Positions 16,750 through 35,885 of a stretch of 41,515 bases of DNA are shown piece by piece. This DNA is from Candidatus Martarchaeota archaeon. GTDB taxonomy: Archaea; Micrarchaeota; Micrarchaeia; Micrarchaeales; Micrarchaeaceae. The translations under genes were made by a program, and so were the position numbers. Position 1 is the first letter of the stretch; every line of letters starts with the position of its first letter. The notes beneath the pieces are model-generated. The model was not told where the DNA came from. It did not search any database and was given only the letters and a program-made list of their open reading frames with translations. The stretch lies in the NCBI GenBank assembly GCA_023473425.1, contig JAMCYG010000023.1, positions 1-41,515 on the forward strand. Direction: 5' to 3'.

Positions 16750-16753
16750 TTGC

Positions 16754-17326
16754 ATGGTAACTCGCATAAAGGGACAGTTTTGGAGTTTTGATGTTATATT
16801 CGCAATAATAATATTCGGGGTAGCAATAACCGTGCTTGCATATACATGGTACAATGTCAACAATCAGCTAGCGCTCGCGTATGGCAACGGCGCAACAATT
16901 ATGCAACTGCAGGCCGAGTCGCTGGCGCAGACTATTATGTCGCCAGGAAATCCGGATAACTGGCAAAGTATTGTGAACACCTCGAATGCAGGCACATGGG
17001 ACAGCGTGAGCATAGGCCTCACGGACGGCAACGGGAGCAGTAGCATATCGCCAGGCAAGCTATACGCTCTGATGTCTATGGCAAATTACAATTATGGGGG
17101 AACCAAGGGCCCGCTCGGCGTAGCATATAACTACTATATAGTGATACAGCAGTCCGGAGGTCCCACATCTGGTGCGAACGAGGCAGGGAACATAACAATA
17201 GGATCTAACCCGCAGAATGGGAAGTCTTTGACCACCTACGTTTACAAGAGAGTGGCTTTCCTTGACGGCGCCCCGGTCACAATATATATAGAGGTGTGGA
17301 CCAACACGCCACTAGCGGTGAGCTGA
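16754..17326 (+). CDS. Pilin-like membrane-anchored protein
   Basis: KGQFWSFDVIFAIIIFGVAITVLAYTWYNVNNQL: class III-like N-terminus; starts 5 bp after the previous stop. Confidence 0.7.
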   Translation: MVTRIKGQFWSFDVIFAIIIFGVAITVLAYTWYNVNNQLALAYGNGATIMQLQAESLAQTIMSPGNPDNWQSIVNTSNAGTWDSVSIGLTDGNGSSSISPGKLYALMSMANYNYGGTKGPLGVAYNYYIVIQQSGGPTSGANEAGNITIGSNPQNGKSLTTYVYKRVAFLDGAPVTIYIEVWTNTPLAVS

Positions 17327-18531
17327 TGAGGAATATGAAGGGATTCGTGTTCACAATCGATGCGGTGTTCGCGCTAATAATAGCCAGCATAGCCACCACC
17401 CTTCTGTTGTATATTAACTTCTATTCACCTATCGTCTATGGAACAGGGGCTCTAGATGCATCAGGGATGGAACAGAGCCTGCTTAGCGCCACAATAGGCA
17501 ATGTGTGCTCATATTTCTACGCGTCCAGCTTCCCCATATGCAGCTTCTCGAGCAACGGCGGCAACGTCAGCTTCGGAGCTTATCAGGTAAGCAGCAGCGA
17601 TAGCGTCCTGCAGGCGCTAGCGGATCTATATCTGACGCAGGGCGCAGGCCCCTATGCTTCATTGATAATGGAAAGAATATACCCGTCGCACAATGCAGGC
17701 ATATACGTCAACAAAACATACGGCCCTTCGATAGGGCTTCGGCTCGGAAACTTCACTAACGGGCCAGCCTTCTATGCCCCGAACTCGCCATCTATAGCGT
17801 TTACCTATTCTGTGAGCCAATGGTTCTACCTCTATTCACAATCCAGCGCAAACAGCGGATATAACCCGATAACTGATATCTACAATGCCAGCAGCAACAA
17901 TGGGATAGGCGGCGGCCAGAATTTCGACTATGGCGGGCTATGGGCAGGATCAACGTCCAACACGTTGGAATATGGCGAGTATTGGCCAACGAATTGGCAG
18001 TTCTGCGTCGCACCTTCCGACATAATCTACCCTGATACATGGTACTATGTAGTAGTAGATGTAAGTGGCTACAGCAACGTAGCCATATATGTAAATGGTA
18101 AAAAGGTGAAGGTATGCTCGCTCAGCGGCGTAGTAGGGCTAACCCCTGCAAGGACGGCTATCGGCATCGGTGATAACCCTCCGGGCGGCAACGAACTTGC
18201 CAATGCGATAATAGCGAATGTCCAGGTATATAACCAGGTGCTCACCCAGAGCAACATCACGAGCATGTACAGGAATGGCATAACGGGCGCCCCGATAGCG
18301 ACAAGCAACCTGATAGGATGGTGGCCGCTTGACGGGAATGCAAATGACTATTCTGGCAATGGCAACAACGGGACATTTACTAGTCCGGCATACACCACAG
18401 TACTTGAAAATACCTATTTGCCCGCAGCGATAACAAACGCGTACCAGATTAGCAAGGCGACGGCGCCGACGTATATCAGCGCGAACGGAGCGAATGCGAT
18501 GTACAACACGAGCGTGGTATTATGGCACTGA
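17326..18531 (+). CDS. Pilin-like protein with LamG domain
   Basis: MRNMKGFVFTIDAVFALIIASIATTLLLYINFY N-terminus; LamG signature ELANAIIANVQVYNQVLTQSNITSMYRNGITGAPIATSNLIGWWPLDGNANDYSGNGNNGT. Start overlaps the upstream stop; the track ORF begins at 17296. Confidence 0.8.
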   Translation: MRNMKGFVFTIDAVFALIIASIATTLLLYINFYSPIVYGTGALDASGMEQSLLSATIGNVCSYFYASSFPICSFSSNGGNVSFGAYQVSSSDSVLQALADLYLTQGAGPYASLIMERIYPSHNAGIYVNKTYGPSIGLRLGNFTNGPAFYAPNSPSIAFTYSVSQWFYLYSQSSANSGYNPITDIYNASSNNGIGGGQNFDYGGLWAGSTSNTLEYGEYWPTNWQFCVAPSDIIYPDTWYYVVVDVSGYSNVAIYVNGKKVKVCSLSGVVGLTPARTAIGIGDNPPGGNELANAIIANVQVYNQVLTQSNITSMYRNGITGAPIATSNLIGWWPLDGNANDYSGNGNNGTFTSPAYTTVLENTYLPAAITNAYQISKATAPTYISANGANAMYNTSVVLWH

Positions 18532-20072
18532 AGAAGAAAGCAAAGGGAGGCGGTCGCAGCAGGATAGCCATTGGCGGCAGCAAAAAAGGGGTCATGTTCA
18601 CGCTGCTGACTATAATACTTTTTGTGCTCATGCTCGCGGAGGTCATAACTTACGTCGTGCTGAATAACACATACAACCAGCAGGCCAGCGAAGCGTCGGC
18701 TATAATAGGAGCAGGCAGCATAGTAAATACACTTAGGGACGGGCTTGGCCCATTCCTTGCCACAAGCGTACAGCATGCTATAAATGTATATCTGCCAGCG
18801 GGCGCGCAGCTCCAGTACCCATTAAACTCGACTGCATCGGCTGCACTATCGTCTCTGGTGTACAACGGCATGATTAATGGCACGAGCTATCCTGGCATGA
18901 GCAATGCAACTGTGATGGCTTTTGCAAGCGCAATGGAAAAGCAGGCGAGCGCCCAGAGCAGTTCCATGAATATATACAACTCAAGCGTGAGAATATATCA
19001 GGATTCTCCAGCATACATAAACGCGACATACACCGGCCTTGCTGCAATAAACACTACCTATGGGTTCTTCACATATCCGCTGAGCATTGAGGCAGGATAT
19101 CCTGTCATGATAGCGTATGTCAACCTTACATTAGAGAATATGCAGCCCGCCCAGTCCCCTTCGCCGTTTCAGCAGATGATCACGTTCGATCCCGCGGCAT
19201 ACAACCAGTACGAGAATTCCGACTTGGGCAACATAAGATTTTACCATGGCGCAACCCCACTGTTCAGCTGGTGCGAGAGCGGTTGCAGCTCTTCAGCGCC
19301 TAGTGCCACATTCTGGGTATCTCTTCCTGGAGGCATAGCGGCAGATTCCAACACCACTATAACCATGGGGTTCATGCCGAAGAATGTGGAGTACAGCATG
19401 GCATACCAAAGTGCAGCCACAACTCCATATGCAGGCGAAGCTCCACAACTCTCGCCTTCATATGCTGAATATGACAATGGCGCAATGGTGTTCAACTTCT
19501 ATGACAATTTCAAGGGCACGAGCCTCAACACGAGCAAGTGGTCTTCATCAGGCGCTGAAACGATAGATAATGGAATAAGCATATCCCCATCGCAGGGCGG
19601 GGATATTGGGACAATCAGCACGTTTTCAAACCCGCTTGTGACTGACATGTACGCAGAGTTCGTAGGACCTGGAACCTCTAGCGGAGGTGTGCTTTCAGGC
19701 ATCTGGTTGAACAGCGGAAGCAACGGAGGAACGTATTTCGACGGATGGCATGCAGCAGTAGATTGCTTCACAGGCGGTGAATGGAACCCAAGCCAGAACT
19801 GGCCGTGCTTCTCCACGCAGCCTTCCGCGTCCACTTATTATGTATGGAGCATAGAATGGCTGCCCAGCTCGTCTGCTGACATATACTATAATTATGGCAA
19901 CGCCCTCTCGCCAACAGACTACAGCGATACGTCAACACCTGTGAATATAGAGATAACCACGCAGGGCAATGCAGTAGCTACCCTGTATGCCTATTGGGTC
20001 AGGGAGAGAGCGTATCCGCCAGGTGGGGTTATGCCTACTGTTCTTATGGGCAATTTAGTAAAAACAAAGTGA
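18522..20072 (+). CDS. Membrane-anchored DUF2341-domain protein
   Basis: N-terminal basic stretch plus TM (GVMFTLLTIILFVLMLAEVITYVVL); DUF2341-like LGNIRFYHGATPLFSWCESGCSSSAPSATFWVSLPGGIAADSNTTITMGF...YDNFKGTSLNTSKW. Confidence 0.75.
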   Translation: MALKKKAKGGGRSRIAIGGSKKGVMFTLLTIILFVLMLAEVITYVVLNNTYNQQASEASAIIGAGSIVNTLRDGLGPFLATSVQHAINVYLPAGAQLQYPLNSTASAALSSLVYNGMINGTSYPGMSNATVMAFASAMEKQASAQSSSMNIYNSSVRIYQDSPAYINATYTGLAAINTTYGFFTYPLSIEAGYPVMIAYVNLTLENMQPAQSPSPFQQMITFDPAAYNQYENSDLGNIRFYHGATPLFSWCESGCSSSAPSATFWVSLPGGIAADSNTTITMGFMPKNVEYSMAYQSAATTPYAGEAPQLSPSYAEYDNGAMVFNFYDNFKGTSLNTSKWSSSGAETIDNGISISPSQGGDIGTISTFSNPLVTDMYAEFVGPGTSSGGVLSGIWLNSGSNGGTYFDGWHAAVDCFTGGEWNPSQNWPCFSTQPSASTYYVWSIEWLPSSSADIYYNYGNALSPTDYSDTSTPVNIEITTQGNAVATLYAYWVRERAYPPGGVMPTVLMGNLVKTK

Positions 20073-20110: not shown

Positions 20111-21106
20111 TCAGACTCCTCCGGCTATACTGGAGAACATCAGCGCTATCACGTGCCCTATCACGATGTACATTCCGATGCCTGCGGCTATGAAAAGCGG
20201 AAGGGTTCGCAAACCCTTGAGCGGCGAGCCCGAATTTATTGTCGACATTATCAGCGATGCGAATCCGGTTATTATGAATATTGCTATTATTGAGAAGGTC
20301 TGGTACTCCGAAGGAGTTATCTTGGGGGGGCTGGGCTTGAGGAATGAGACGCCAGCCGTCGGAAGCCCGCCAGGATTTGCGGCGAGTATGCCCTTCCATA
20401 CAGTGTCAGTCACCGTTATCATCTGGCTGGTGAGGCCGTATAGCAGAGGGGCTGCGATGACGCCTGCGAACGCTATGAATATGCTGTACATAAAGAGCTG
20501 CCCGGATATCTCCTTCTGGGTGGTCTGCTGGCTCCTCAGGTCCTTAGATATCTGATCGAGAAGGTCAGCCATGGCTCCACCGTACCTGAGTGCCTCGCTC
20601 ACCATTCTTAGAGAATGCTGCAGCTGGAACGACCTATACTTCTCACCAAGCTCTTTCATCGCTACCTCGAGGGTCTCCCCGCCGAATATCCTTCTGTTCA
20701 TATCCCTTATATCGTCAGAGAAGAACTTGAACTCTGGCCTCGCTGCAAGAAGCAGCGAGCGGTCGAGCGCTATGCCGCTTCTCAGGTTCGCGCTTGCTAT
20801 CTGGAAGTAGTCCGGCAACATCACTTCCATCCTGCTCTTCCTGCCATCTATCATGTACTCCAGGATCATGAATATTATGCCTATGAAAAGCCCTGCTGCG
20901 CCTATTCCTGAAAGCACGTCTATCGCTGGGCTTAAGTGGGCCTTCAGGAACATGGTGAGCGAGACGAGCACTATTATCAGGAACGCTCCTGTTATCGCTA
21001 TGCCCAGAACCTTGTTCAGATCGATTTTCACGCCTGCGAGATCCAGCTCCTTGGAAATCTTCCTTGACAGGTTTCTCGATACAAGCATCTCAAATCTTAT
21101 TGCCAT
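20111..21106 (-). CDS. TadC/FlaJ/GspF-like membrane platform protein (second copy)
   Basis: T2SSF-like MLPDYFQIASANLRSGIALDRSLLLAARPEFKFFSDDIRDMNRRIFGGETLEVAMKELGEKY and several TM helices. Confidence 0.85.
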   Translation of the reverse strand: MAIRFEMLVSRNLSRKISKELDLAGVKIDLNKVLGIAITGAFLIIVLVSLTMFLKAHLSPAIDVLSGIGAAGLFIGIIFMILEYMIDGRKSRMEVMLPDYFQIASANLRSGIALDRSLLLAARPEFKFFSDDIRDMNRRIFGGETLEVAMKELGEKYRSFQLQHSLRMVSEALRYGGAMADLLDQISKDLRSQQTTQKEISGQLFMYSIFIAFAGVIAAPLLYGLTSQMITVTDTVWKGILAANPGGLPTAGVSFLKPSPPKITPSEYQTFSIIAIFIITGFASLIMSTINSGSPLKGLRTLPLFIAAGIGMYIVIGHVIALMFSSIAGGV

Positions 21107-21110
21107 AGTA

Positions 21111-22286
21111 TCACATTGTGAAGACCGGTCTAGAAGACCTTATTATGTTAAGAAATATCACTTGCAGGAACAATATTGCCACGAGAGCGCCGTACAATAG
21201 CTGGGGAGTTATCGTGAAAAGAGAGATGAATGTCGTAAGTATAGTAGCTACAGCTATGCCCATGCTAGGAAGTATTACGCCGAACAGCATGTAGAACATT
21301 GCCAGCGCGTTCAGCCTCTGCCCATACCTCCTGAGCTCTATAATTCTTTCCTGCGACAGCTGATCTATTGCAGACTGCAGCGCCGATATAACATCCGAGC
21401 CTGACTTTATGCTTACGCTTGCCTGAAGCATAACCCTTCTGAACGAGGAACTGCCGGTCTCGGCTATTGCCCGATCTATAGCATCGCCGAGAGGTATTCC
21501 GACCTGCACCATTTCCACTATGCGCTTGAATTCGGCGCTTGCGTCGCCGTAGCCGGTGCTGACTGATGTTATCGCATTGTACAGAGGCATGCCGGATCTC
21601 AATGATATTATTATGTCTCGCACAGCAAAAAGTATGTCGCGCTCCACGCCCTTTCCGGTCTTACGGCCCCTCTGCGCGGGATAGTTCAGGAACATGCCGA
21701 ACATCATCCTGTATACAGCTATCGCGACAAGTGCGCCAAGAAGCAGTTCAATAGGCATGCTAATTGAGGTTTTCTGCAGCACTATGATTATCATGGCGCC
21801 TACGAGCACGCCCATCATTATTGAGGAGAGGAGCATGCGCCTTATGAAGTCCGTTGCAGATTCCTTGACGCCCCTTGCGGTGAGTGCATCCTCCAGTTTG
21901 GGGTGCTTGAACGCTACGCTCTGTATGTAATTGTGCAGGAATCCGCGCTTCGGTCTCTGCTGCGATGCTGCCCTCTGCTGCATCGTAGGCTTTTGAGGCT
22001 GCTGAGCGGTTGGATTGGGCTGCTGAGAAGACCGCTGCGCCTGTGTACTGCCCTGCTGCGTCGGCTGCTGCGGCTGCTGTGCCGGTATAGCGGTGGAGCT
22101 CGTGGACGCGGAAGGCCTGTTTATCAGCTCTGAAGGTGATGTCGGCTGCTTCGCGGCTTTCTGGGAACCGCCGAAGAGCCCTTTCTTGGGCTTGGGCTGA
22201 AGCTCTATCTTCCTGCCGTCCACCTCTATTATTCTAGGACTGCCTTTTTTCTTAAATGGGTTAAAATTAAGAGGCATTGGAACCAA
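21111..22286 (-). CDS. TadC/FlaJ/GspF-like membrane platform protein with Q/P-rich N-terminal linker
   Basis: VERDILFAVRDIIISLRSGMPLYNAITSVSTGYGDASAEFKRIVEMVQVGIPLGDAIDRAIAETGSSSFRRVMLQASVSIKSGSDVISALQ; N-terminal AQQPQQPTQQGSTQAQRSSQQPNPTAQQPQKPTMQQ. Confidence 0.85.
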   Translation of the reverse strand: MVPMPLNFNPFKKKGSPRIIEVDGRKIELQPKPKKGLFGGSQKAAKQPTSPSELINRPSASTSSTAIPAQQPQQPTQQGSTQAQRSSQQPNPTAQQPQKPTMQQRAASQQRPKRGFLHNYIQSVAFKHPKLEDALTARGVKESATDFIRRMLLSSIMMGVLVGAMIIIVLQKTSISMPIELLLGALVAIAVYRMMFGMFLNYPAQRGRKTGKGVERDILFAVRDIIISLRSGMPLYNAITSVSTGYGDASAEFKRIVEMVQVGIPLGDAIDRAIAETGSSSFRRVMLQASVSIKSGSDVISALQSAIDQLSQERIIELRRYGQRLNALAMFYMLFGVILPSMGIAVATILTTFISLFTITPQLLYGALVAILFLQVIFLNIIRSSRPVFTM

Positions 22287-22920
22287 CCGGCTTTTGCTTC
22301 AGTGCGCTTATCGCGTCGACAAGCCTCTGATCCCTGAGGTTCCACATCGACTGCTCAAGCGAGTTGAGCTTCTTCTTTTCCTTCACAACCTGTTTCCTCT
22401 GCAATTCTATGAAATAGTACAGCCCATAGACCTCTTGTTTTACTATGTCAAGATGTTCCTGGTCCAGAACACCCTCGCTTATGCTTTCTATTATTCTCTC
22501 CAGCTCAGACACCTGATCAGGAAGTGAGAGATTTGGTAGCACGAGGTCCTTCAGGTTGACCTTCTTCACCTTGATGCCCTTGAGGGCTACTGGCGTAGAA
22601 GGCACTTGGAGGTCGGCCTGCGGCGCTCCAATTTCCGGGGATACGGCCTTTTCAACCTGCTCCTCGAATGGTGACTTGGCGCCACGTACCTCCTGCTGCT
22701 GTTGCCCTGGCTTCTGCGCTCCAAATATTGCTCTCTTGGATTCCGCGCCCTCAATTTTTGTCAGCAAGTCGTCGTATTTGGCCTTCTGCGGCTGCTCTGA
22801 TGAAAAAAGACCTGAAACGTCTATCTTTATCGCGGCGCGCTCCAAAGCGGAGCTGGCTGCGTCTATGTCGCTGACCGTCTTGGCCATTTCTTCATAGTCC
22901 GGCTGTTTTTCCAGCGGCAT
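22267..22920 (-). CDS. Unknown protein in secretion operon
   Basis: MPLEKQPDYEEMAKTVSDIDAASSALERA...; C-terminal helical domain DQVSELERIIESISEGVLDQEHLDIVKQEVYGLYYFIELQRKQVVKEKKKLNSLEQSMWNLRDQRLVDAISALKQK. Start at 22920 sits at the ATPase stop. Confidence 0.7.
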   Translation of the reverse strand: MPLEKQPDYEEMAKTVSDIDAASSALERAAIKIDVSGLFSSEQPQKAKYDDLLTKIEGAESKRAIFGAQKPGQQQQEVRGAKSPFEEQVEKAVSPEIGAPQADLQVPSTPVALKGIKVKKVNLKDLVLPNLSLPDQVSELERIIESISEGVLDQEHLDIVKQEVYGLYYFIELQRKQVVKEKKKLNSLEQSMWNLRDQRLVDAISALKQKPVGSNAS

Positions 22921-22924
22921 AGCA

Positions 22925-24469
22925 TCACTTGAAAATATCCATTGAGAACTTGACATTGTTTTCTGCTATATCGAGAACCTTGCTCTTGTTCCTGTAGTAG
23001 TTGGCTACGACGAACCCTGCATCGTCAACAGAGATTACGTCGTTCGAAACCATCCATTTCAGCACCTTCGACTTCTCATCTATCTCGCTCTGTATGTCGG
23101 ATGTAGAGAGTCCGGAGTACATGTTGAGCACTTCCGACAGCCTGGTCATGGCACTTATCTGCACCAGTTCATCAGTGTTCATGTTCCACCTGTACAGTAC
23201 GTTCGCATCGCCGTTCTGCAATATTTCCGAATATTCGAGTATTCTTCTTATACCTCTAGCCCTGTGCCTGAAGTTGACTATTATCCCTCCAAGCGAGTTC
23301 AGCGTTATCTTAGGCACACCTATAGGCGGGTTAGTCATCCTTATGACGGCATCCTGGGCATTGTCAGCGTGCAGTGTGCCGTAGACTGCATGCCCTGTAT
23401 GTATGGCTTCAAATAGCGTCTCGGCATCCTCCTTCACCCTTATCTCCCCTACCAGCATTATGTCTGGCCTCTGCCTAAGTGCATTGACCATCAGGTCGTG
23501 CAGTGTAACCTCACCCTTGCCCTCGGGATTTGGCTGCCTGGTAACCATCGCGATCCACTGCAGGAAATTAGGAAGGGAGAGTTCCCTCGTCTCTTCTACA
23601 CTTATTATTCGCCTAGTTGGAGGATAAAATATGCTCGAGGCGTTAAGGAAGCTCGTCTTTCCGGATGCGGTTCCGCCAGCTATCAGCAGGCTTATCTCAT
23701 TCTCTATAGCAAGCCATATCTGCGCAGCCACGCCTAAATCTATGGTCTTGTTCTTTATCATTGCCGGCATTGTCCAAGGGTTCTTTGCGAACTTCCTTAT
23801 TGTGATGGTGTTGCCCACGTGAGATATAGGGTATAATGTCGCATTAACCCTGGAGCCATCAGCGAGCTCTGCATCCATAAGCGGCTGCAGGTTGTTTATC
23901 TCCCTGCCTACCCTTCTCCCCATTCGCTCGCTCTGGTCGTATATCTCGCTGTCGCTCTGCGGCTTTATGTCGGTCTTGCACCATCCGACCGTCTTGTGGA
24001 ACACCCAAATGAAATCTCTGGCTCCGTTTATCGCTACCTCTTCAAGGTTATCATCAGCAAGTGGTATCTCGAGTTCGCCGTAGCCGAGCATCATGTTGAT
24101 TATGTAGGCAGTGAGCAGCTTCCTGGTGTCCTGCCCCAGTCCCGGAAGGTGCTTGTCTATCAGTATGCCGCTCGCTTCTATGTACCTAGTATTCAGTTCT
24201 TTTTCATAATCCTGATCGTCCACCCTCGACGGGTCTATCGGGACCATGTTGAGGAGGTCGGACCTCAGGGACATTATGAGAAGCTTTGTTGCGTCGCTTA
24301 TGCCTGTGGTCTTAGTCATATATCTCGGCACGAACTCGTCAGTGTTAATTATCTTTACGTCTACTGCCATTCCATGAACGTCGAGAGTATAACTAGCCAA
24401 TATATTGCCTTCGGAACTGGCAGACCTAACGCCTTCGCCATCATTCTGGTTCGTCTCCTTTTCAGACAT
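22925..24469 (-). CDS. GspE/TadA/VirB11-type secretion ATPase
   Basis: Walker A LLIAGGTASGKTSFLNA, Asp/His-box region ISVEETRELSLPNFLQWIAMVTRQPN, Walker B DIMLVGEIRVKEDAETLFEAIHTGHAVYGTLHADNAQDAVIRM. Confidence 0.93.
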   Translation of the reverse strand: MSEKETNQNDGEGVRSASSEGNILASYTLDVHGMAVDVKIINTDEFVPRYMTKTTGISDATKLLIMSLRSDLLNMVPIDPSRVDDQDYEKELNTRYIEASGILIDKHLPGLGQDTRKLLTAYIINMMLGYGELEIPLADDNLEEVAINGARDFIWVFHKTVGWCKTDIKPQSDSEIYDQSERMGRRVGREINNLQPLMDAELADGSRVNATLYPISHVGNTITIRKFAKNPWTMPAMIKNKTIDLGVAAQIWLAIENEISLLIAGGTASGKTSFLNASSIFYPPTRRIISVEETRELSLPNFLQWIAMVTRQPNPEGKGEVTLHDLMVNALRQRPDIMLVGEIRVKEDAETLFEAIHTGHAVYGTLHADNAQDAVIRMTNPPIGVPKITLNSLGGIIVNFRHRARGIRRILEYSEILQNGDANVLYRWNMNTDELVQISAMTRLSEVLNMYSGLSTSDIQSEIDEKSKVLKWMVSNDVISVDDAGFVVANYYRNKSKVLDIAENNVKFSMDIFK

Positions 24470-24480
24470 CGTTCAGCGCC

Positions 24481-25920
24481 TCATTTCTTCTTCTGACCTT
24501 TATTAACAGTGGCATCTGGCTTGCCTTTGCCCTTGGGCTGCTGTTGGTCCTGATCCTGGACCTGCGAAAGGGCCGCTCCGCCGCTGACATCCTTCTTCTG
24601 GAGGGCGTCATTGTCCTCAAGCATCTCGCCAGCATTCTTCAACCCAGAGGCAGCCTTGGATATTGAGGACTCCACTTCAGATATCTTCTTATCAGAATCC
24701 GCAGCTTTGTCGCGTATCTCGTTCGCGAGCGTGAGTTCATCATCGGCATCCATGCCCTTAGAATCCAGGACTGCGTTCACATCACCTATCAACCTCTCTG
24801 TGATGGATTCCAGTTCCTTGATTATTTCCGCGGATGTCGATAGATTGAGGCTAACGCTATGCATCTGCTCATCGAACGCGCCCACGACCCCGTAGCCTTC
24901 CTTCACGGCCTTCATCGTTGCATCTACCTCCTTCAGCTTGTCGTGAATCAGCCTGTTCGCGTTGTCGGCCTCTTTCCTGAATTTATTGTATGAGTCAGCA
25001 AACATATCGCGCTTCTTGACTATGGATCCGCGGTCCTTTTCGAGCTCATTTCTAAAATTCTTGTACATGTCAGAGAACCCTTTGGCGGTGTGCAGTTGGT
25101 CGCGTGCACTTCTCTCCACTTCGTCCAGGTTCTTGCGCTCAATGAGCAGCTTCTCAGTAAGCGATTTGCTGTCCTGCTCTATGGAGCTCTCGAGTTCGCG
25201 GAGCTGCGACTCCACACTCTTCCTTATCGCCTGCACCATGTTGTCCTTGTTCCTCCTCATTTCGTCTATTTGCTTCTCTAAGCTGTCTATCCTGCTCTTG
25301 AACTCACTCGCCTCTGGAAGCTTCAGCTCGTTTCCTGATTCGGCGCTCTTGTTGAGGAATGCCTGTATCTTTCTGTCCATCGCATCTATCTCGCTGACGG
25401 ACTTCTCATAATCAGAAGTTATGCTCTTGTATGATGCTTCTATGTCTCTGGCATGCTTCTCAACACCATCATAAATGGAATTTATCTCAGCCAGGCGCTT
25501 GTGCACGTCCGGAAGAGCCTTCCTGTAAAGCTCGTCCACCGCGCTGAACTGCACCTTCAGCTTTGAGAGAGAGTCCGATAGGTTGCCAAGCTTTATAGTC
25601 TGCGTGGTAAGCAGGTTCCTCGCGTTGTTCATCTCCACCTCTGCCTTCTGCTTCATGAGCTGCTCTGAAGCAGTGCGGCCCTCTGGGAGCTCCATGAACA
25701 TACGCCCCACTTCATATGATATCTTTATCAACTTGCCCTCTTCGAGTACCTTGGCCCATCCTTCGATAACATTCGGGCTGGTGTTGAGCTCAGCTGACGC
25801 CCTATTGAGGTCTATCCTGCCCTTCTTCTTTATAAGGTCAAGAAGTGAGTCTATAGTAGTCTTGGTTTCAGCGGTTGGCGCCCTACCTTCGTCTGAGGGC
25901 TTGTACTGGGTCATGGCCAC
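24481..25920 (-). CDS. N-terminal winged-helix plus long coiled-coil protein
   Basis: KTTIDSLLDLIKKKGRIDLNRASAELNTSPNVIEGWAKVLEEGKLIKISYEVGRMFMELPE (wHTH-like) followed by ~350 aa of heptad-like charged helix; Q/K-rich tail. Confidence 0.75.
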   Translation of the reverse strand: MAMTQYKPSDEGRAPTAETKTTIDSLLDLIKKKGRIDLNRASAELNTSPNVIEGWAKVLEEGKLIKISYEVGRMFMELPEGRTASEQLMKQKAEVEMNNARNLLTTQTIKLGNLSDSLSKLKVQFSAVDELYRKALPDVHKRLAEINSIYDGVEKHARDIEASYKSITSDYEKSVSEIDAMDRKIQAFLNKSAESGNELKLPEASEFKSRIDSLEKQIDEMRRNKDNMVQAIRKSVESQLRELESSIEQDSKSLTEKLLIERKNLDEVERSARDQLHTAKGFSDMYKNFRNELEKDRGSIVKKRDMFADSYNKFRKEADNANRLIHDKLKEVDATMKAVKEGYGVVGAFDEQMHSVSLNLSTSAEIIKELESITERLIGDVNAVLDSKGMDADDELTLANEIRDKAADSDKKISEVESSISKAASGLKNAGEMLEDNDALQKKDVSGGAALSQVQDQDQQQPKGKGKPDATVNKGQKKK

Positions 25921-27545: not shown

Positions 27546-28076
27546 TCACAGTTTGTAGTGCTCCTTTATCATCCTTGCTGCTTTATTTGGAGGTACGGAC
27601 GTGTTGTCTATGGAAAAGCTCTCGTAGCCATCGACAGTAGAATGAAGGTCGTACTTCTTTTCCAGCCTTGCAAGTGTCGATGCTGACCTTATCTTGCTGA
27701 ACCGCATTCTAGACTTTGAAATCAGGCGTTTTTTAAGTTCGTCACTGGAACAATACAGCCGTACGAAGAATACCTTGCTGCCGTGTTTCTCTACCGTTTT
27801 CGTTAGTATTTTTAGGTACCCATCGTCTGCGCCTTTTGCATACACGAACGTTGCAACCATTCCTGGAAGGCTTGACGCAGCTGCGGCATCAAGCATTTCC
27901 AACCTGTATCTGTTTATTAGACGATTGAACTCCTTGGTGCCGTAATCGAAAATAGGCAGCACGGCTTCTATGGCCAGATGGTTATGGTAGAGTTTGTAGC
28001 CAGTAAGTCTGGCAAGCGCTGTGGCTACTGCAAGCTTTCCTACGCCAGGCGGACCGTAGATGAAAATGACCTTCAT
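27546..28076 (-). CDS. P-loop kinase-like/AAA_33 protein
   Basis: MKVIFIYGPPGVGKLAVATALARLTGYKLYHNH: Walker A GPPGVGK. Confidence 0.75.
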   Translation of the reverse strand: MKVIFIYGPPGVGKLAVATALARLTGYKLYHNHLAIEAVLPIFDYGTKEFNRLINRYRLEMLDAAAASSLPGMVATFVYAKGADDGYLKILTKTVEKHGSKVFFVRLYCSSDELKKRLISKSRMRFSKIRSASTLARLEKKYDLHSTVDGYESFSIDNTSVPPNKAARMIKEHYKL

Positions 28077-28250: not shown

Positions 28251-28703
28251 ATGGATGCTGCTGCAGGGCAAGCTAAAGGGGAAAGCGTGCCGCGAAGGTC
28301 AGGGCATGTGATAGTGTGCGGATATGGCGGCGTTGGGCAGAACGTAATCGAGGTACTGGCGGATAAGGGACTGCCTTTCGTTGTGGTGGACCTGGATCCC
28401 GAAAGGACAAAAAGGGCCGCAGAGCTCGGCCACGACACTGTCAACGGCGACGCGACTCAATCGAAAGTGCTGAAACAGGCTGGAATAGAGCATGCGAAAG
28501 CCATAGCAATAGTAATGGACAACGACGCGAAGAACCTTTTCACGGTACTTACTGCAAGGAATCTCAACAGGAAAATATTCATAGCGACCAGAGCCAACGA
28601 CGAGTTTGTCAGGGAGAAGTTGGTCGAGGCGGGCGCGGATTATATAGTAATGCCGCAGAGGTCCGCCAGCAAGGAAATAATAAGGGAGATAATAGGCCAA
28701 TAG
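28251..28703 (+). CDS. Soluble TrkA-N/RCK domain protein (RCK-1)
   Basis: GHVIVCGYGGVGQNVIEVLADKGLPFVVVDLDPERTKRAAELGHDTVNGDATQSKVLKQAGIEHAKAIAIVMDNDAKNLFTVLTAR: intact GxGxxG Rossmann motif. Start at 28251; the track ORF begins at 28158. Confidence 0.88.
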   Translation: MDAAAGQAKGESVPRRSGHVIVCGYGGVGQNVIEVLADKGLPFVVVDLDPERTKRAAELGHDTVNGDATQSKVLKQAGIEHAKAIAIVMDNDAKNLFTVLTARNLNRKIFIATRANDEFVREKLVEAGADYIVMPQRSASKEIIREIIGQ

Positions 28704-28725
28704 TAGTGCAACGCGCAGTGGTTAG

Positions 28726-29502
28726 ATGAGCGACGGTTTGGAGAGCGCGGAAGAGAGCTTTGCATCTCGCGCAGTGCCAATTTTGATAATAAGTGTGGTG
28801 CTGTTCGCACTGATTTCGTTCCTGGTAATAGACAAAATGTCGCACAATACCTATTCCTCGCTATATTATACGCTGGCAGCCTTGTTTGATGCGGGAGGCG
28901 TGGGCGGTTTTGATACACCTCTTATAAGCACTACGCCGCTGTTCAGCCAGGATTTCTACATACTGACTGGAATATCCCTGATAGACGGCATGATAAAGGT
29001 CGTCATAGTGAGCTTTCTCATAGCCTCGCTGCTCGACCTTATCACTGGGATCAATATAAAGTCAAAAATAGTAGCCAGGTCTGCGCACCAGATGATTGGC
29101 CATGTGATAGTTTGTGGCTATTCACCTTTGGGGGAGAAAGTATGCGACGAGCTTGCAGCTAATAAGAAGAAGTTCGTGATAATAGATAAGGACAAGACTA
29201 AGATAGAGGAGATAGAGAGCAAGGGATACTCGTTTATAGAGGGTGATTTCACCAGTTCCGCGACGCTGGAGAGCGCTTCGATAAAGTCAGCTAGCGAAAT
29301 CGTATTCGCAACGGAGAGCGACTTCGACAATATGCTTGGCATAGTTACCGCAAGGACCATCAGCAAGGAGGTCAAGATTGTGTCGAGGGCAAAAGAGGAA
29401 ACGGCAAGGGCAAGCATGCACAGTGCGGGGGCAACCCTGTGCGTGGTGCCGGAGCTGCTCGCTGGGCTCGAAATAGGAGAGATGGTAGCTACGAAGGTGT
29501 GA
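28726..29502 (+). CDS. 2-TM/P-loop plus TrkA-N (RCK-2) channel-like protein with non-canonical filter
   Basis: TM1 AVPILIISVVLFALISFLVI, pore-like YSSLYYTLAALFDAGGVGGFDTPL, TM2, then GHVIVCGYSPLGEKVCDELAANKKKFVIIDKDKTK. Confidence 0.82.
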   Translation: MSDGLESAEESFASRAVPILIISVVLFALISFLVIDKMSHNTYSSLYYTLAALFDAGGVGGFDTPLISTTPLFSQDFYILTGISLIDGMIKVVIVSFLIASLLDLITGINIKSKIVARSAHQMIGHVIVCGYSPLGEKVCDELAANKKKFVIIDKDKTKIEEIESKGYSFIEGDFTSSATLESASIKSASEIVFATESDFDNMLGIVTARTISKEVKIVSRAKEETARASMHSAGATLCVVPELLAGLEIGEMVATKV

Positions 29503-29506
29503 TGAT

Positions 29507-30238
29507 ATGGACAACAGCAGAAGGCGCTACTCGATACTAATCGCCATAGCGGCCGCCCTGTACATCTCTGCTGTGGTGCTGACAATATATGCCGGTGTCA
29601 ACCCGCTGGTCTCCATACTATGGAATGCCATGGCAGCACTGCAGGTCTTCTACGCAGAACTCCTGCCGCTCTCTGCTGCAAAGAACCCGCTCATAGTTGT
29701 TGTCAACATCATAGATGTGATAATATTCGCACTTATCGCATTGTTCCTTGCGACAGAGTTTCTCACGTTCCTCAGAAGCATAGATCTTAGAGAGAGGCTC
29801 ACCTTCAGGAAGATAAAGTCAATGAAGGACCATGTAATAATAGCGCCTTACAACAGCTTCGCAAACACACTGATCAATGACCTGTTCAAAGAAGGCCGCA
29901 AAGATATTGTGGTAATAACAGAGAGCCAGAAGTATGCACATGCACTGAGCAGGATGGGAGTGCCAGCCGTAGTAGGAAAGGCCGGAGCAATGGAGTCGTT
30001 CGCGCTTTCCGGAGCCGCAAAGGCGAAGTTCGTGTTAGCATGCGGCGATGCAGATCTGGACAACGCGCTCATATCTGTTACGGCGAAGTCTGTCAACAGC
30101 AAGCTCAAGGTCATATCGAGGGTGAACAAGCGCGAGAACATACCCAAGCTCAGCATGGCCGGGGCCTACATGACCGTGCTGCCTGAGATAGAAGCAGGAA
30201 GGGTAATAGGTGCGGAGCTGATCAAAAGAATAGTGTGA
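29507..30238 (+). CDS. 2-TM plus degenerate TrkA-N (RCK-3) protein
   Basis: TM1 YSILIAIAAALYISAVVLTIYA, pore-loop-like ILWNAMAALQVFYAELLPL, TM2 VVVNIIDVIIFALIALFLATEFL, then DHVIIAPYNSFANTLINDLF...VVITESQKYAHALSRMGVPAVVGKAGAMESFALSGAAKAKFVLACGDADLDN. Confidence 0.78.
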   Translation: MDNSRRRYSILIAIAAALYISAVVLTIYAGVNPLVSILWNAMAALQVFYAELLPLSAAKNPLIVVVNIIDVIIFALIALFLATEFLTFLRSIDLRERLTFRKIKSMKDHVIIAPYNSFANTLINDLFKEGRKDIVVITESQKYAHALSRMGVPAVVGKAGAMESFALSGAAKAKFVLACGDADLDNALISVTAKSVNSKLKVISRVNKRENIPKLSMAGAYMTVLPEIEAGRVIGAELIKRIV

Positions 30239-30287: not shown

Positions 30288-33200
30288 TCAGGATCGGACT
30301 GCCCTTCTTCTCTGGATCGCTACAGTAATGGCCACGAGCGCGAGAGCGGCAAGCACAGCAATCGCCGCATCATCCTTACCGTAGGATAGGGCGTATATTC
30401 CTATAGGGAAGGTCTGCACGGCTGAATACGGCGAGTAAGAGTAGTTGAACTCCAGCGTATTGAGGTTTGCATTGGGGCGGTTCAACGCAGTGAACTGCGT
30501 AGAAGTGTACGAAGCGTTATTCATGTCAGGCTGTTTGTACAGCATCGGCTCCGGGGAAGGAGCGCCGTAGTAGGAGGCAGTAATCTTCGCAGTACCAGTC
30601 CCGCATACGTTGAACTTATCAGAGAAGTTTCCATTAGAGTCTGTATATGCTATATCCACAAGGCCGAGCTGTGTAGTAAGGTGGCCGGTGCCATTGAGGA
30701 AGGTGGGAACGCAGTATGCAGTCCCGGTAGGATAGCTGGCAGTCTTAGGCAATCCGAAGTACCCGTATATGTTGCAGTTAACGCTCAGGGATGATGCAAG
30801 CAGGCTGTTCGGCTCAAGCGCGCATGTGTTTGCTGTGGAACTGTTGTACTGCGTGTGGAACGTGACGTAGTTGGCTTCTTCTACCCCTGTGGTGTTGTCG
30901 GAATGCGAATAGCTGCCACCGCTGTCTGTCCATGTCCATGTGTAGGTTGGATTAGCAAGCGTGCACCCAGTAGAAAGCGGGCTGAACGCGCAGTTCTCGG
31001 CGTATGCGAAATAATTGGCCGGGTCGGATGACTGCGTGAGCGTTGAGTTGTAGTAGTTTAAGTTAGTGTCATAGTATATGTAAATAGGCGTATCAGGCGG
31101 CATGGGAGTGCAGCCAGTCAGAGCGGTGTTCTGGCAGTTAAGTGCCGTGCCAGACACAGTCACTGCCGACTCATTCGGATTATTGGGGTTAGTATCTATC
31201 GAATGTGACAGCTGTATGCTCGTCAAGTTTGATATGTCAACATCGATTGGGGCTTTAAGCAGGTTGCCGAATTCGTCGGTTATCATGTATATGAATCTAT
31301 CATATCCGAGCGCCTGCTTGCTGCCGAGCAGCGAGTAGGAGAAGCTGTCGCTGTACGATGTCAGTTTGTATATGCTAAACAGCGAGAACGGAGCATTGAC
31401 GTCAGGCCCGGCAAGCGTAAGATTTATCAGGCTGGGCCCGGGATACGCTTCTGGGGCAACCTGTTCCCATGAGCAAGAGTAATTTATTATGAAGTGCTTA
31501 CAAACGTAACGTTCGCTGGGCGGCAGTTGTGTTACGCCTGTGGCAGGAGTGACAGGATTGGAGAGCTCAATCTGGTATGATGGATAAGAGCCAAAGGTGG
31601 ATTTTATGTTATACGTCTGCGTGCCATAGGCCAGCACGCGTGTGTAATTTACAACAAGCGGCGAGGCCACGTTGTTGTCAGGATTCACTGTTTGGTTTAT
31701 GTAGACAGAGCCTATGAGCCTGTCAGTAAGCAGGTTATAGTTTATCAATGGCGGAAGTATCACGTTCTTGTCAGAGATGTTTGCAGTGTACAGGTTGCCA
31801 GTAGTGAGATACTGCAGCAGCGTAGCCCCTCCTTGTATGGTGTAATTGAGGGAAGCAGTATGTACAGGATACTGCGCAACTGCATATATGTCGCGGCTGC
31901 TGCTTTGTGTAGAGCCGAAAGGCACATCATAAGTGCATGGCGCACCGCTGCTGCAATAGATACCTGACAATATTATTTTGCCATTGCTGTACGTGCTTAC
32001 GCACTGGCCACCGGTTGGTATATCATTGCTTCTGTATACCTGAGTGCATGACGAGGGAGATGACCATACCTTGTTCAACGAATAAGAATAGTGCAGTGGG
32101 ACAAGAAATGCACCGCCTATGGAAGTGTTGATGTAAGTGTAGCTGCTGGCAAGCCCTGTGCCGTGCGGTATGGAACTATTCGTAACTTGTGTGTAGTTAA
32201 TGGTTGTAGTAGTGGAGCTCGTGCTCGTCTGGCTTCCGCTGCTGCTCCCGCTCTGCCCAATTCCGAGCGAAGAGAAAGTCGACAGCGCAGATTGGTAGAT
32301 TGATGGCGATCCCTGGGATTCTGCATAGCTGAACGAATTCGGCACCTCTATGAATGGGCCCATGCTCATATTCATAAGCACAGCCGCATCTGAAGAGTTG
32401 TACGCGCTGCCTGGGCTGTTGCTAGGAACCATGCAGGTGGTCTTGCCGGAAGTCGGTGCGGTAGTAAGGTAACAGAAGTACTTGGCATTCGAAGCGAGGG
32501 ATATCTTGGAATAGTTGTAGACCGGAGCTCTGAAGCCTAATAGCTGGATGTATATGGTGCTGATAGAGGAGCCGTAGTTGCTATATGATGACACGTTGGA
32601 AAGCAGGTAAGCGGTTCCATTGTAATCCATTGAGAAATCTATGTACGGCAACAGGCCGTAGGAACGCGAAGTTGCCGGTATGAGCGGTCCTATGGGCTCA
32701 TATGGTGTGTTGAGGTTGGCAGGAGTGAAGTTGCAGTCAGCTGCACAATATGTAATGTGCGCTACTTTGTATGTAGTTGTGTTTATGTATGTCAGATTGG
32801 CAGAAAGGGGCCACCCGTATGGTGGCTGCTCGCCATTGAAGTAGCTGCCGGCGCCTGCATTCAGGAAACTCAGCGCCATAGAGTTTGATGCAACTAAATC
32901 GCTATAGTTGACCGGATCGATCTTTATCTCGGTGCCGTTAGGCGCGAATACGCGCAACATAAGTATAGACGAGTTCAGGTTATCATAGAATGTGTTGCGC
33001 GTGCCTAGATTAGAGCAGGGCTGCATTATCTGATTAGTCTTCTGTATGACCTGTGCACCTTCACCATAATATCCAGGGTTCAGCACGCAGTTATGATACG
33101 TCCACCAGTCAAGCACATATATTAAGCCTTGGTATCCAGCAATGGCTACTGGGTAATGGTTAGACGGAGTGTCGTTACCCAATCCGATGGCAGCTAATCC

Positions 33201-35741
33201 TGCAAGGCTGCCTGTGGAATCATTGGTAAGTACGTTGGAGTAGAATCTTGCTATTGTTGCATTGTTGAATGGGCCGCCATGCGCCATGTAATCCAAAGTG
33301 GACATTTTGGCAGAGAGCCAGGTCGGAGAATATGACAGGGGTATAGTGCCCGCAGGCGCGAAGTTTGATTTCACGCTATATGCAAGTATGTCGCCAGTTG
33401 TATTCGGTAGGTATACGTAGGTACCGCCAGCGTCAGATGCCATGGAGTACACCCCGCCGAAAGGCACACCCTGCAGATTGTTATTTGCTACAATAGTGCC
33501 GTTGGATAGGACGCCTGCCATTTCAAATGTAGGCGATGAGCTGCTTATCGTGCTTGCGGTGGCTCCAAATATGAAAACATCATCGGCATAGTCTGTAGTC
33601 ATCGTGTATGGCACCAGACTGGATATGCAGTCAGAACCTGTACAAGAATTGCTGTATCCACCGAGTCCCCACCAGCTATTCGTATTGCTAGTCAAGTTAT
33701 ACACGTTTGTTACGTACAAGTTGCTTGATTGTTCTGTGCTCGATATCTGCCAATATGCTTTCCAATTAGATTCCCATTCATTCAGCGTGTTAGCCGTCAC
33801 TACAGAAGGTGGATTATTAGTCAGGTTAAGGTAGCCTTTTGGTATGAAGCTCAGAACATAGAGGTATGAACTCATGGTCGAGCTGAAGCATGCCGTGCCG
33901 CATGTTGTAGAATAGTTGATTATGTATATTTTGTTGTTGGGAGATTCAGCCATGTATATCGGTGATTCTACAGGACCGGAAGCGAAGTTGTTTATACTCC
34001 CTAAGGTCTGACCGACAAGTGTTGTGAATCCATTGAGTATCCCTTTGCTTCCAGCATTGCGCTGCTTTATCTGCGAAGGTGTCTCCGCGATCATGAACGT
34101 GGAGTTGCCGTTTCTGAATGCAGCTGGATCAGGATTGCCGACCGACACCAAACTTGACGGGAATTCAGTCACAATCCCGGCAGGATGTGATGAGGAAGTC
34201 ACTGTAGCGAAGAAGCCGTCGCCAGTGTAAATCTTGAACGGATCGAGTTTGGCAGCGCTGAGATAGTTGCTTGGACTGTACATGTCGTATGAGAGGTTCA
34301 GGAATTCGGTTCTATTCGTCGCAGAGCTGACCACAGCTGGCATCGAAGTGTTATAGAGGAAGTAAGGATACATGCCCACATTAATTGTTGGATATGGGGC
34401 TTTCTGCGGCACTACCCAGATGGTTATGTCCCTTTGGGCGTACTTGGAGCAGCCAAAACCAAGAACATCTGGAAAACACGATGTCCAGGCGAAATAGTAG
34501 TTATTGCTGTCGCCCTGGTATGTAGTCATATAGCCGCTCTGGTTCGTGCCATCGGTGTAGTATAAAGTGCCAGACCCGAGGACGTTGTAGCCGCCATTGC
34601 TCAGGCACCAGCTAAGGCTATGTAAAGCACCGCAAGTTGCAGTGGAGGAAAAGCTTGCCGGAGCATATGCACTACCGTCATAAGATATCCAGTCCTCACC
34701 AGCAAATGAGGGATTGACCGAAGGTACAGGCATTGTCGTGGAACTCAGCTTTGAGAGAGTCGCAGAAGTGTCGAAGCTGTAAGTGTACTGGTCCGCCAGA
34801 TTGCCGCAGGGCGCTGTAGAACCGCTGCTGCAGCTCACGGTGTAACCGACGTCATAATGGAGATTCGGATAATTAGCTGATTCGGATATAGAGCCACTCA
34901 TCGCAGGAATGTTGGCAACTTCAGCAAACCATGTCCAGATACCGCTCTGATTCGAGGAGGGAAAGTTCTGAAACACGTTAGACACAGTATCATACCCGTT
35001 GGAGATGTTCGGCGTCTGCCCGCTGTATGAAGCGGCGCCATCATAAGTGAGTGCATACGCATCGCTTCGCACTAGATTGTTGAAAGCAGGACCAGCAAAT
35101 GAGTCCGCAACGGCAGTAGTATTCCACATTGTATGTATGTCAAGCAACTCGTTGGTAGTTAGCGGGCTGGATGGGGCCAAACAGCGGTTGCCATATATGC
35201 CGTCAGCCATGTCTGTAGAAAAGTACTCGAGCGTGTTAGATGGATTCGGAGCTACAGGGCAAGTTATAAGGTTCTGCACATTCGCGCTGTTGAAATTTAT
35301 CACACTACTTATTACAGGAGTATTGCTCGTTTCTGGAGAGGAGGTCACGGTGAAGTTGCCATTACCAGCAGAGCCCGATGGGTAGTCAGTGACAACAGTG
35401 CCGAATTTCTTGTACACGTTGCAGTCTCCGCCATTCGGCGTGGCGGTAGGGCATCCTGGGTATATCGAAGTTGTCGATGTGGAAGTCGTAGTGGTAGTAG
35501 TGACGGAAGTAGTCAGTGAAGAGTTGTACACGCATTGGTAGCATCCGGTCTTAAGAAGGGTGCAAGTTTGTTTGGGGTTAGGACAGTAGCCTATATGCCC
35601 GCAGCTGCATTCTGGAAGGGCATATATAACTTGATTAAGGGTTGAAGACGCCGAACGTGTGCTAGTTGCATTGTTTGCATAAGTGCTACTCGAGATCAAC
35701 AGGGTAGTTGCTATAGCAAGCAATACGAAAAAGCGTGCCAT
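30288..35741 (-). CDS. Giant secreted/membrane-anchored surface protein (~1817 aa)
   Basis: Signal-peptide-like MARFFVLLAIATTLLISSSTYA, Cys-rich N-terminal segment (CSCGHIGYCPNPKQTCTLLKTGCYQC), Thr/Ser tract TTSVTTTTTTSTSTTS, many N-x-S/T sequons, C-terminal TM plus IQRRRAVRS. The track ORF extends to 35783. Confidence 0.82.
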   Translation of the reverse strand: MARFFVLLAIATTLLISSSTYANNATSTRSASSTLNQVIYALPECSCGHIGYCPNPKQTCTLLKTGCYQCVYNSSLTTSVTTTTTTSTSTTSIYPGCPTATPNGGDCNVYKKFGTVVTDYPSGSAGNGNFTVTSSPETSNTPVISSVINFNSANVQNLITCPVAPNPSNTLEYFSTDMADGIYGNRCLAPSSPLTTNELLDIHTMWNTTAVADSFAGPAFNNLVRSDAYALTYDGAASYSGQTPNISNGYDTVSNVFQNFPSSNQSGIWTWFAEVANIPAMSGSISESANYPNLHYDVGYTVSCSSGSTAPCGNLADQYTYSFDTSATLSKLSSTTMPVPSVNPSFAGEDWISYDGSAYAPASFSSTATCGALHSLSWCLSNGGYNVLGSGTLYYTDGTNQSGYMTTYQGDSNNYYFAWTSCFPDVLGFGCSKYAQRDITIWVVPQKAPYPTINVGMYPYFLYNTSMPAVVSSATNRTEFLNLSYDMYSPSNYLSAAKLDPFKIYTGDGFFATVTSSSHPAGIVTEFPSSLVSVGNPDPAAFRNGNSTFMIAETPSQIKQRNAGSKGILNGFTTLVGQTLGSINNFASGPVESPIYMAESPNNKIYIINYSTTCGTACFSSTMSSYLYVLSFIPKGYLNLTNNPPSVVTANTLNEWESNWKAYWQISSTEQSSNLYVTNVYNLTSNTNSWWGLGGYSNSCTGSDCISSLVPYTMTTDYADDVFIFGATASTISSSSPTFEMAGVLSNGTIVANNNLQGVPFGGVYSMASDAGGTYVYLPNTTGDILAYSVKSNFAPAGTIPLSYSPTWLSAKMSTLDYMAHGGPFNNATIARFYSNVLTNDSTGSLAGLAAIGLGNDTPSNHYPVAIAGYQGLIYVLDWWTYHNCVLNPGYYGEGAQVIQKTNQIMQPCSNLGTRNTFYDNLNSSILMLRVFAPNGTEIKIDPVNYSDLVASNSMALSFLNAGAGSYFNGEQPPYGWPLSANLTYINTTTYKVAHITYCAADCNFTPANLNTPYEPIGPLIPATSRSYGLLPYIDFSMDYNGTAYLLSNVSSYSNYGSSISTIYIQLLGFRAPVYNYSKISLASNAKYFCYLTTAPTSGKTTCMVPSNSPGSAYNSSDAAVLMNMSMGPFIEVPNSFSYAESQGSPSIYQSALSTFSSLGIGQSGSSSGSQTSTSSTTTTINYTQVTNSSIPHGTGLASSYTYINTSIGGAFLVPLHYSYSLNKVWSSPSSCTQVYRSNDIPTGGQCVSTYSNGKIILSGIYCSSGAPCTYDVPFGSTQSSSRDIYAVAQYPVHTASLNYTIQGGATLLQYLTTGNLYTANISDKNVILPPLINYNLLTDRLIGSVYINQTVNPDNNVASPLVVNYTRVLAYGTQTYNIKSTFGSYPSYQIELSNPVTPATGVTQLPPSERYVCKHFIINYSCSWEQVAPEAYPGPSLINLTLAGPDVNAPFSLFSIYKLTSYSDSFSYSLLGSKQALGYDRFIYMITDEFGNLLKAPIDVDISNLTSIQLSHSIDTNPNNPNESAVTVSGTALNCQNTALTGCTPMPPDTPIYIYYDTNLNYYNSTLTQSSDPANYFAYAENCAFSPLSTGCTLANPTYTWTWTDSGGSYSHSDNTTGVEEANYVTFHTQYNSSTANTCALEPNSLLASSLSVNCNIYGYFGLPKTASYPTGTAYCVPTFLNGTGHLTTQLGLVDIAYTDSNGNFSDKFNVCGTGTAKITASYYGAPSPEPMLYKQPDMNNASYTSTQFTALNRPNANLNTLEFNYSYSPYSAVQTFPIGIYALSYGKDDAAIAVLAALALVAITVAIQRRRAVRS

Positions 35742-35885
35742 CACAGTGTATTCTTCCCGCATGCGACCAGCAGTTATTAGCATTAATTATTTCTGTTAAC
35801 ACTTTTAAATACTTATATAGTAGTACCATGCGAAAGAAAACGTAAATATTTTGTTTGGCAAATAAACAAATAAAAGGTGATCGAA

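Follow-up and report, generated by a model that had tools for sequence, protein, structure and literature searches.

A conserved three-gene RCK module of Micrarchaeota with a predicted MthK-like fold and no recognisable K+ filter

MthK is a 2TM RCK-gated K+ channel of Methanothermobacter, and CASTOR, initially regarded as a K+ channel, was then proved to be Ca2+-selective. The eight RCK lobes that MthK requires are of two kinds: four belong to the pore chains, and four are soluble products of an internal start (Met107) in the same gene (PMC9440719). In GsuK of Geobacter, the GxGxxG-bearing RCK2 binds nucleotide, and the channel is activated by NAD+ and ADP (PMC3510474). It has been reported that a single Thermotoga locus encodes two RCK proteins, TM1088A and TM1088B, which form one octameric TrkA ring (PMC4380455). 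CASTOR is an RCK-ring Ca2+ channel without TVGYG, in which Asp265 of the filter region is essential (PMC6697748). K+-channel-fold proteins lacking TVGYG are rare and informative. In this study, we analysed a set of three RCK genes in an archaeal window of 41,515 nucleotides (the whole stretch of DNA under analysis). The fold family is already known; of the three-gene filterless module, we found no account in open-licence papers.

As shown in Table 1, the locus consists of three consecutive RCK genes on the same strand, as the initial annotation had stated. Gene 1 starts with the ATG at 28251, and GGAGAG lies 5' of this codon. A Pfam profile search matched TrkA_N (PF02254), the RCK N-lobe domain, in all three genes, and Ion_trans_2 (PF07885) in none of them at E 0.1; thus, the proposed HMM search confirmed the RCK assignment of every gene and was negative for the channel domain. 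The RCK C-lobe (TrkA_C) was not found in genes 1-3 by the Pfam search, TrkA_N being the only one of the two lobes present. In PDB sequence searches, the genes led to GsuK and MthK, and the best profile match of gene 2 was GsuK (1.5e-27). Gene 1 alone resembles KtrA/TrkA lobes. In the genome of origin (734,731 bases, 89% complete), these three genes are the only TrkA_N matches and there are no Ion_trans_2 matches, and the window holds no canonical TVGYGD channel, in agreement with the initial annotation. The module is therefore the only RCK/K+-channel-like system found in its own genome.

Table 1. Positions of the RCK genes, their pore features and the surrounding genes in the window
Feature	Position	Strand	Description
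Large probable surface proteins	14035-20072	+	Laminin_G_3 and DUF2341
Type IV pilus / type II secretion-like operon	20111-25920	-	T2SSF, T2SSF, unknown 229 aa, T2SSE, unknown 479-aa coiled-coil-like; upstream of module
Small P-loop kinase-like protein	27546-28076	-	GPPGVGKL motif; weak Pfam matches, AAA_18 below its cut-off; upstream of module
Gene 1	28251-28703	+	Soluble single RCK N-lobe, 150 aa; CGYGGVG intact and acidic VVDLDPE; PF02254 E=3.5e-33
Gene 2	28726-29502	+	TM1-pore helix-TM2-RCK, 258 aa; no K+ filter; altered Rossmann motif CGYSPLG; PF02254 E=2.6e-26
Gene 2 pore helix and next residues, aa 42-63	28849-28914	+	Conserved Y47, F54, D55, G58; missing-filter site
Gene 2 TM2, aa 75-108	28948-29049	+	D87, G/N88, K/R91, A100 conserved
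Gene 3	29507-30238	+	TM1-pore-helix-like-TM2-RCK, 243 aa; no filter; degenerate Rossmann motif IIAPYNSFAN; PF02254 E=7.4e-17
1831-aa probable surface protein	30288-35783	-	Ser/Thr/Asn-rich, C-terminal hydrophobic stretch; downstream of module

Single-chain models were built with AlphaFold2 from alignments of 77 rows for gene 2 and 74 rows for gene 3. The gene 2 model had a mean pLDDT of 89.6, with values of 71-73 in blocks after the pore helix, and its helices spanned residues 3-39, 42-54, and 75-108. The mean pLDDT of the gene 3 model was 93.8, with helices at 3-28, 33-44, and 61-91. Both models comprise TM1, a short pore-helix-like helix, TM2, a linker helix, and the RCK N-lobe, and a pore-loop fold is present in each. 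The best PDB structure match in a Foldseek search was full-length MthK (8djb), both for gene 2 (E=1.1e-11, 241 columns) and for gene 3 (E=3.7e-11, 231 columns), and GsuK came next for both genes. These whole-chain matches support the MthK-like TM1-P-TM2 topology that had been proposed initially. Whole-chain TM-scores against the PDB were modest (0.5-0.6), and the RCK lobes alone were closer (rmsd 1.4-2 A); since the lobes fit better than the whole chain, the placement of the membrane part relative to the RCK part seems to differ. All three proteins terminate once the N-lobe helix is complete and lack the C-lobe contribution to the flexible interface of MthK. When the membrane profiles were compared with hhalign, genes 2 and 3 matched each other (P=1.9e-7), and their matches to canonical channels, in the expected register, were weak (P 0.005-0.05; gene 2 about 0.02-0.05).

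We then considered how widely the module occurs. Within the same family (f1), 77 of 86 genomes gave a match to gene 2 at a cut-off of E<=0.001, a few of these matches being other RCK proteins. The named relatives are Candidatus Micrarchaeota, including Ca. Micrarchaeum sp. A_DKE and a Ca. Mancarchaeum record. Contigs were scanned for the relatives' loci with gene 1 as query. The full trio, with its gene order and shared strand preserved, was found in 77 of 78 Micrarchaeota loci, the window counted, and in the sole exception the contig ends inside gene 2. Intergenic distances are small; between genes 2 and 3, values of 0 or -4 nt are frequent. Across 165 genomes of the order, with gene 1 called at E<=1e-45 and gene 3 at E<=1e-60, both genes were found in 89 genomes and neither in 71, while gene 1 alone was called in four and gene 3 alone in one. 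These five apparent exceptions were resolved: in four, the module is truncated by the end of a contig, and G004 has a divergent gene 3 in place. The module is thus present in 94 and absent from 71 genomes, some absences in incomplete genomes possibly being assembly gaps, and the three-gene set is all-or-none across the order. The conserved order and the joint presence bear out the proposal that the module acts as one unit. Together with the MthK and GsuK matches and the confident models, its occurrence in 94 of 165 genomes places the observation beyond chance.

Since the models have a channel-like fold, the site of the selectivity filter was compared among orthologues. No K+ filter (T-x-G-Y/F-G) was found in gene 2 or gene 3, nor in their orthologues (77 gene 2 and 74 gene 3 sequences). 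The lone filter-pattern match among the gene 2 sequences, SMGFG in L145, lies in the loop past the pore helix, and the pattern occurs in 0/74 gene 3 orthologues, as expected from the initial description of gene 3 as filterless. The initial annotation had also read GGVGGFD in gene 2 as a filter variant standing where TVGYGD is expected. This reading did not hold up: residue 62 within GGVGGFD is inserted relative to all of the other 76 aligned orthologues, which read LFDAVGID and similar in f1 and FFDAQNTAA in a second family, f2. As GGVGGFD is peculiar to this protein and not conserved, it was ruled out as an altered filter. From a single genome, a sequence error could not have been excluded, and the locus might have been a plain K+ channel whose filter was lost through sequencing error or recent decay here. 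The filterless orthologues across two families refute error or local decay as the cause; moreover, the frames are open with conserved residues throughout, and the duplication that gave rise to genes 2 and 3 is older than the family split. We find this explanation scarcely credible. Judged from the sequences, the loss of the filter is ancestral. Of the three findings that would have spoken against the initial annotation (lost synteny, canonical filters in orthologues, and a predicted structure lacking the pore-loop fold), none was obtained.

The pore region of gene 2 is conserved in spite of the missing filter, with LFDA-x-G at the pore-helix end. Among 77 sequences, Tyr47 was conserved in 75, Phe54 in 66, Asp55 in 64, and Gly or Asn at position 58 in 69; in TM2, the counts were 73 for Asp87, 76 for Gly/Asn 88, 72 for Lys/Arg 91, and 74 for Ala100. 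Asp55 is nearly universal in f1 (51/54) and weaker in f2 (13/23). Information content in gene 2 was 2.52 bits per column in the pore helix, 2.35 in TM2, 2.38 in the RCK domain, 1.72 in TM1, and 1.30 in the loop, and in gene 3 it was 2.07 in the pore helix against 1.73 in TM1. Conservation of the gene 2 pore helix above TM1 and about equal to the RCK domain argues against idle decay. In the profile comparison, where the match was weak, Asp55 aligned with the first Thr of TVGYG; with a conserved Asp at the filter-Thr position, any conduction would use another selectivity element.

Such an element has a parallel, by position only, in the CASTOR/POLLUX/DMI1 proteins, which like gene 2 have an RCK-linked pore without TVGYG, D55 standing at a site comparable to that of D265 in CASTOR. 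Asp55 stands at the pore-helix end in 64 of 77 gene 2 orthologues and may take a place in a filter there. However, the CASTOR-type channels are eukaryotic (plant), with the filter ADS(A)GNHA and another domain make-up, and genes 1-3 showed no Castor_Poll_mid Pfam match and no CASTOR chain among their PDB matches.

The same residues also bear on a different interpretation, in which the MthK fold serves as an anchor or signalling frame, the pore is shut, and the RCK ring reports the redox or nucleotide state to another membrane protein. Were the conserved Lys/Arg of TM2 to point into the cavity, it would disfavour a cation pore; combined with the filterless gene 3, this residue makes a closed, purely sensing complex a serious rival. 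The charged D87 and K/R91 and the filterless orthologues of both membrane genes fit a non-conducting sensor, whereas the conservation of the gene 2 pore helix above TM1 does not. We regard this alternative as quite possible, and short of probable.

The nucleotide site distinguishes the three genes further. The initial annotation had described gene 1 as soluble with an intact GxGxxG and the gene 3 motif as degenerate. Both points were confirmed among orthologues, GxGxxG being present in 69/69 for gene 1 and 1/69 for gene 3. In this study, we found that the Rossmann motif of gene 2 is altered as well (GxGxxG in 2/70 orthologues), and only gene 1 has GxGxxG with an acidic residue after strand 2. 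As the motif is confined to gene 1, one lobe in three is expected to bind a dinucleotide. GsuK is similar to the module in having unlike RCK lobes, one of them with GxGxxG, which in GsuK binds nucleotide (PMC3510474). GsuK differs in that both RCKs lie in one chain and in being a K+ channel with the filter TLGFGD.

These results suggest that the module is probably either a sensor-gated channel for a non-K+ substrate or a sensor that no longer conducts. The reading that fits best is an MthK-like complex whose RCK ring would owe its nucleotide-sensing part to gene 1 and whose membrane part, built from genes 2 and 3, would have either a closed pore or a non-canonical one. We infer the assembly, stoichiometry, ligand, conduction, and ion of this complex. 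In the membrane, genes 2 and 3 would probably combine into a mixed pseudo-fourfold assembly, for which 2+2 is simplest, and each of their subunits would add one RCK lobe beneath the membrane. The ring would be completed by soluble RCK lobes from gene 1, in place of the internal-start lobes of MthK. The likely sensor is gene 1, because it is the sole subunit with an intact dinucleotide pocket, and NAD(H) or an adenine nucleotide is the candidate ligand. MthK resembles genes 2 and 3 in its whole-chain TM1-pore helix-TM2-RCK fold, and the module in its mixture of membrane-linked and soluble RCK lobes, which for the module is predicted from the genes. MthK differs in having TVGYG, one gene, Ca2+ gating, and an RCK C-lobe, whereas the module has three genes, two membrane subunits, and neither filter nor C-lobe. 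The TM1088A/B locus likewise encodes more than one RCK protein, and its two-subunit ring is a precedent for the one that the module may form. The whole-chain MthK match, the gene order in 77/78 loci, the all-or-none presence, and the pore-helix conservation speak for such a complex; the lack of a recognisable filter in either membrane subunit, the weak hhalign match to canonical channels, the missing C-lobe, and the TM2 Lys/Arg, should it point into the cavity, count against it. On balance, we give about an even chance to one membrane complex on the MthK plan, with gene 1 as sensor and genes 2 and 3 as a pore without a K+ filter. A compact prokaryotic RCK module that invariably comes as three genes, two of them for different membrane subunits, would offer a simple model in which to study how a channel of this fold functions, or fails to, once the filter is gone.

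As RCK domains belong to the TrkA/KtrA family, we also considered whether the three proteins are TrkA-like regulatory subunits of a conventional K+ system, either a TrkH/KtrB-type transporter or a canonical RCK channel. The KtrA/TrkA-like character of gene 1 agrees with this. However, TrkH (PF02386) was found in 0/165 order genomes, with the control positive in 11/14 reference genomes, and this largely refutes the TrkH version. KUP was likewise found in 0/165, and with the canonical RCK channel missing from the genome of origin, these possible partners of a non-conducting sensor are also lacking. A separate 2TM-RCK protein with the canonical STVGYGD is encoded elsewhere in about half of the relatives and not in the window's genome, and it is missing from many other module-bearing genomes; Ion_trans_2 was matched in 46/86 f1 genomes. 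Genes 2 and 3, moreover, carry their own MthK-type membrane part. A regulatory role of this kind is therefore improbable. The canonical Micrarchaeota channel (for example in L104-L107 and L188-L213) is like genes 2 and 3 in length, domain order, and organisms, but it has STVGYGD, lies elsewhere in the genome, and forms a separate clade. In G071 (L218:2625-3386; f1, genus g24), a near-complete genome, the filter of the 2TM-RCK channel reads STVGSNIVP and not STVGYGDIVP, a further departure from the canonical filter. Genomes of genus g24 are without the three-gene module.

In f1, the module and the canonical channel coexist. In f2, Ion_trans_2 was above cut-off in 1/24 module genomes compared with 50/55 module-less genomes. 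These raw counts are striking, but the exclusion amounts to about three switches on the EF-2 tree and was not significant in an independent-pairs test allowing for relatedness (median p 0.5); it was not taken as strong evidence. At most, the pattern hints that the module may substitute in a role related to that of the canonical channel. A fuller version, in which an obligate, nucleotide-gated three-gene heteromer with an Asp-lined element (divalent, Na+/H+, or mixed cation) in place of the K+ filter evolved in Micrarchaeota and supplanted the canonical RCK channel in some lineages, is tentative and rather unlikely.

The neighbouring genes were compared among the relatives' loci. Besides the genes in Table 1, an M50 peptidase lies upstream of the module, further off and on the other strand. 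No constant partner gene was found beside the module, and the flanking genes vary in side and strand; this weakens the case for a non-conducting sensor that signals to another membrane protein. A function inferred from the M50 peptidase, the type IV-pilus-like operon, or the surface proteins was dropped for the same reason. The 479-aa coiled-coil-like family is found near the module in many relatives.

The origin of the membrane genes was examined in an RCK-domain tree of 143 columns, in which many forks are unresolved. Genes 2 and 3 form a joint clade (97/94), with a gene 3 clade inside it (100/98) and a less firm gene 2 clade (92/92), and the canonical STVGYGD channel falls into a clade of its own (100/99). 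Members of both f1 and f2 occur in each of the gene 2 and gene 3 clades, which indicates that the duplication predates the families. As read from this tree, genes 2 and 3 are paralogues of long standing and do not belong with the canonical channel. Outside the order and in the same class, family f15 (L309-L313) has a two-gene version consisting of a soluble RCK and a filterless membrane RCK. The two f15 genes group most closely with one another (95/92), and the pairing of soluble and membrane proteins therefore appears to have originated separately there; this second soluble-plus-membrane pair, which recalls the soluble RCKs of MthK, counts in favour of the MthK-like complex. Family f24 (L314-L315), also outside the order in this class, has a single-gene filterless version. 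The pore regions of these f15 and f24 relatives, which are also without a filter, read SVPGFVLDVPGF and CTSLYVDCSAS. This wider occurrence of filterless membrane-RCK proteins in the class is a further point in favour of a non-conducting sensor. L314 carries the single-gene version as two separate open frames.
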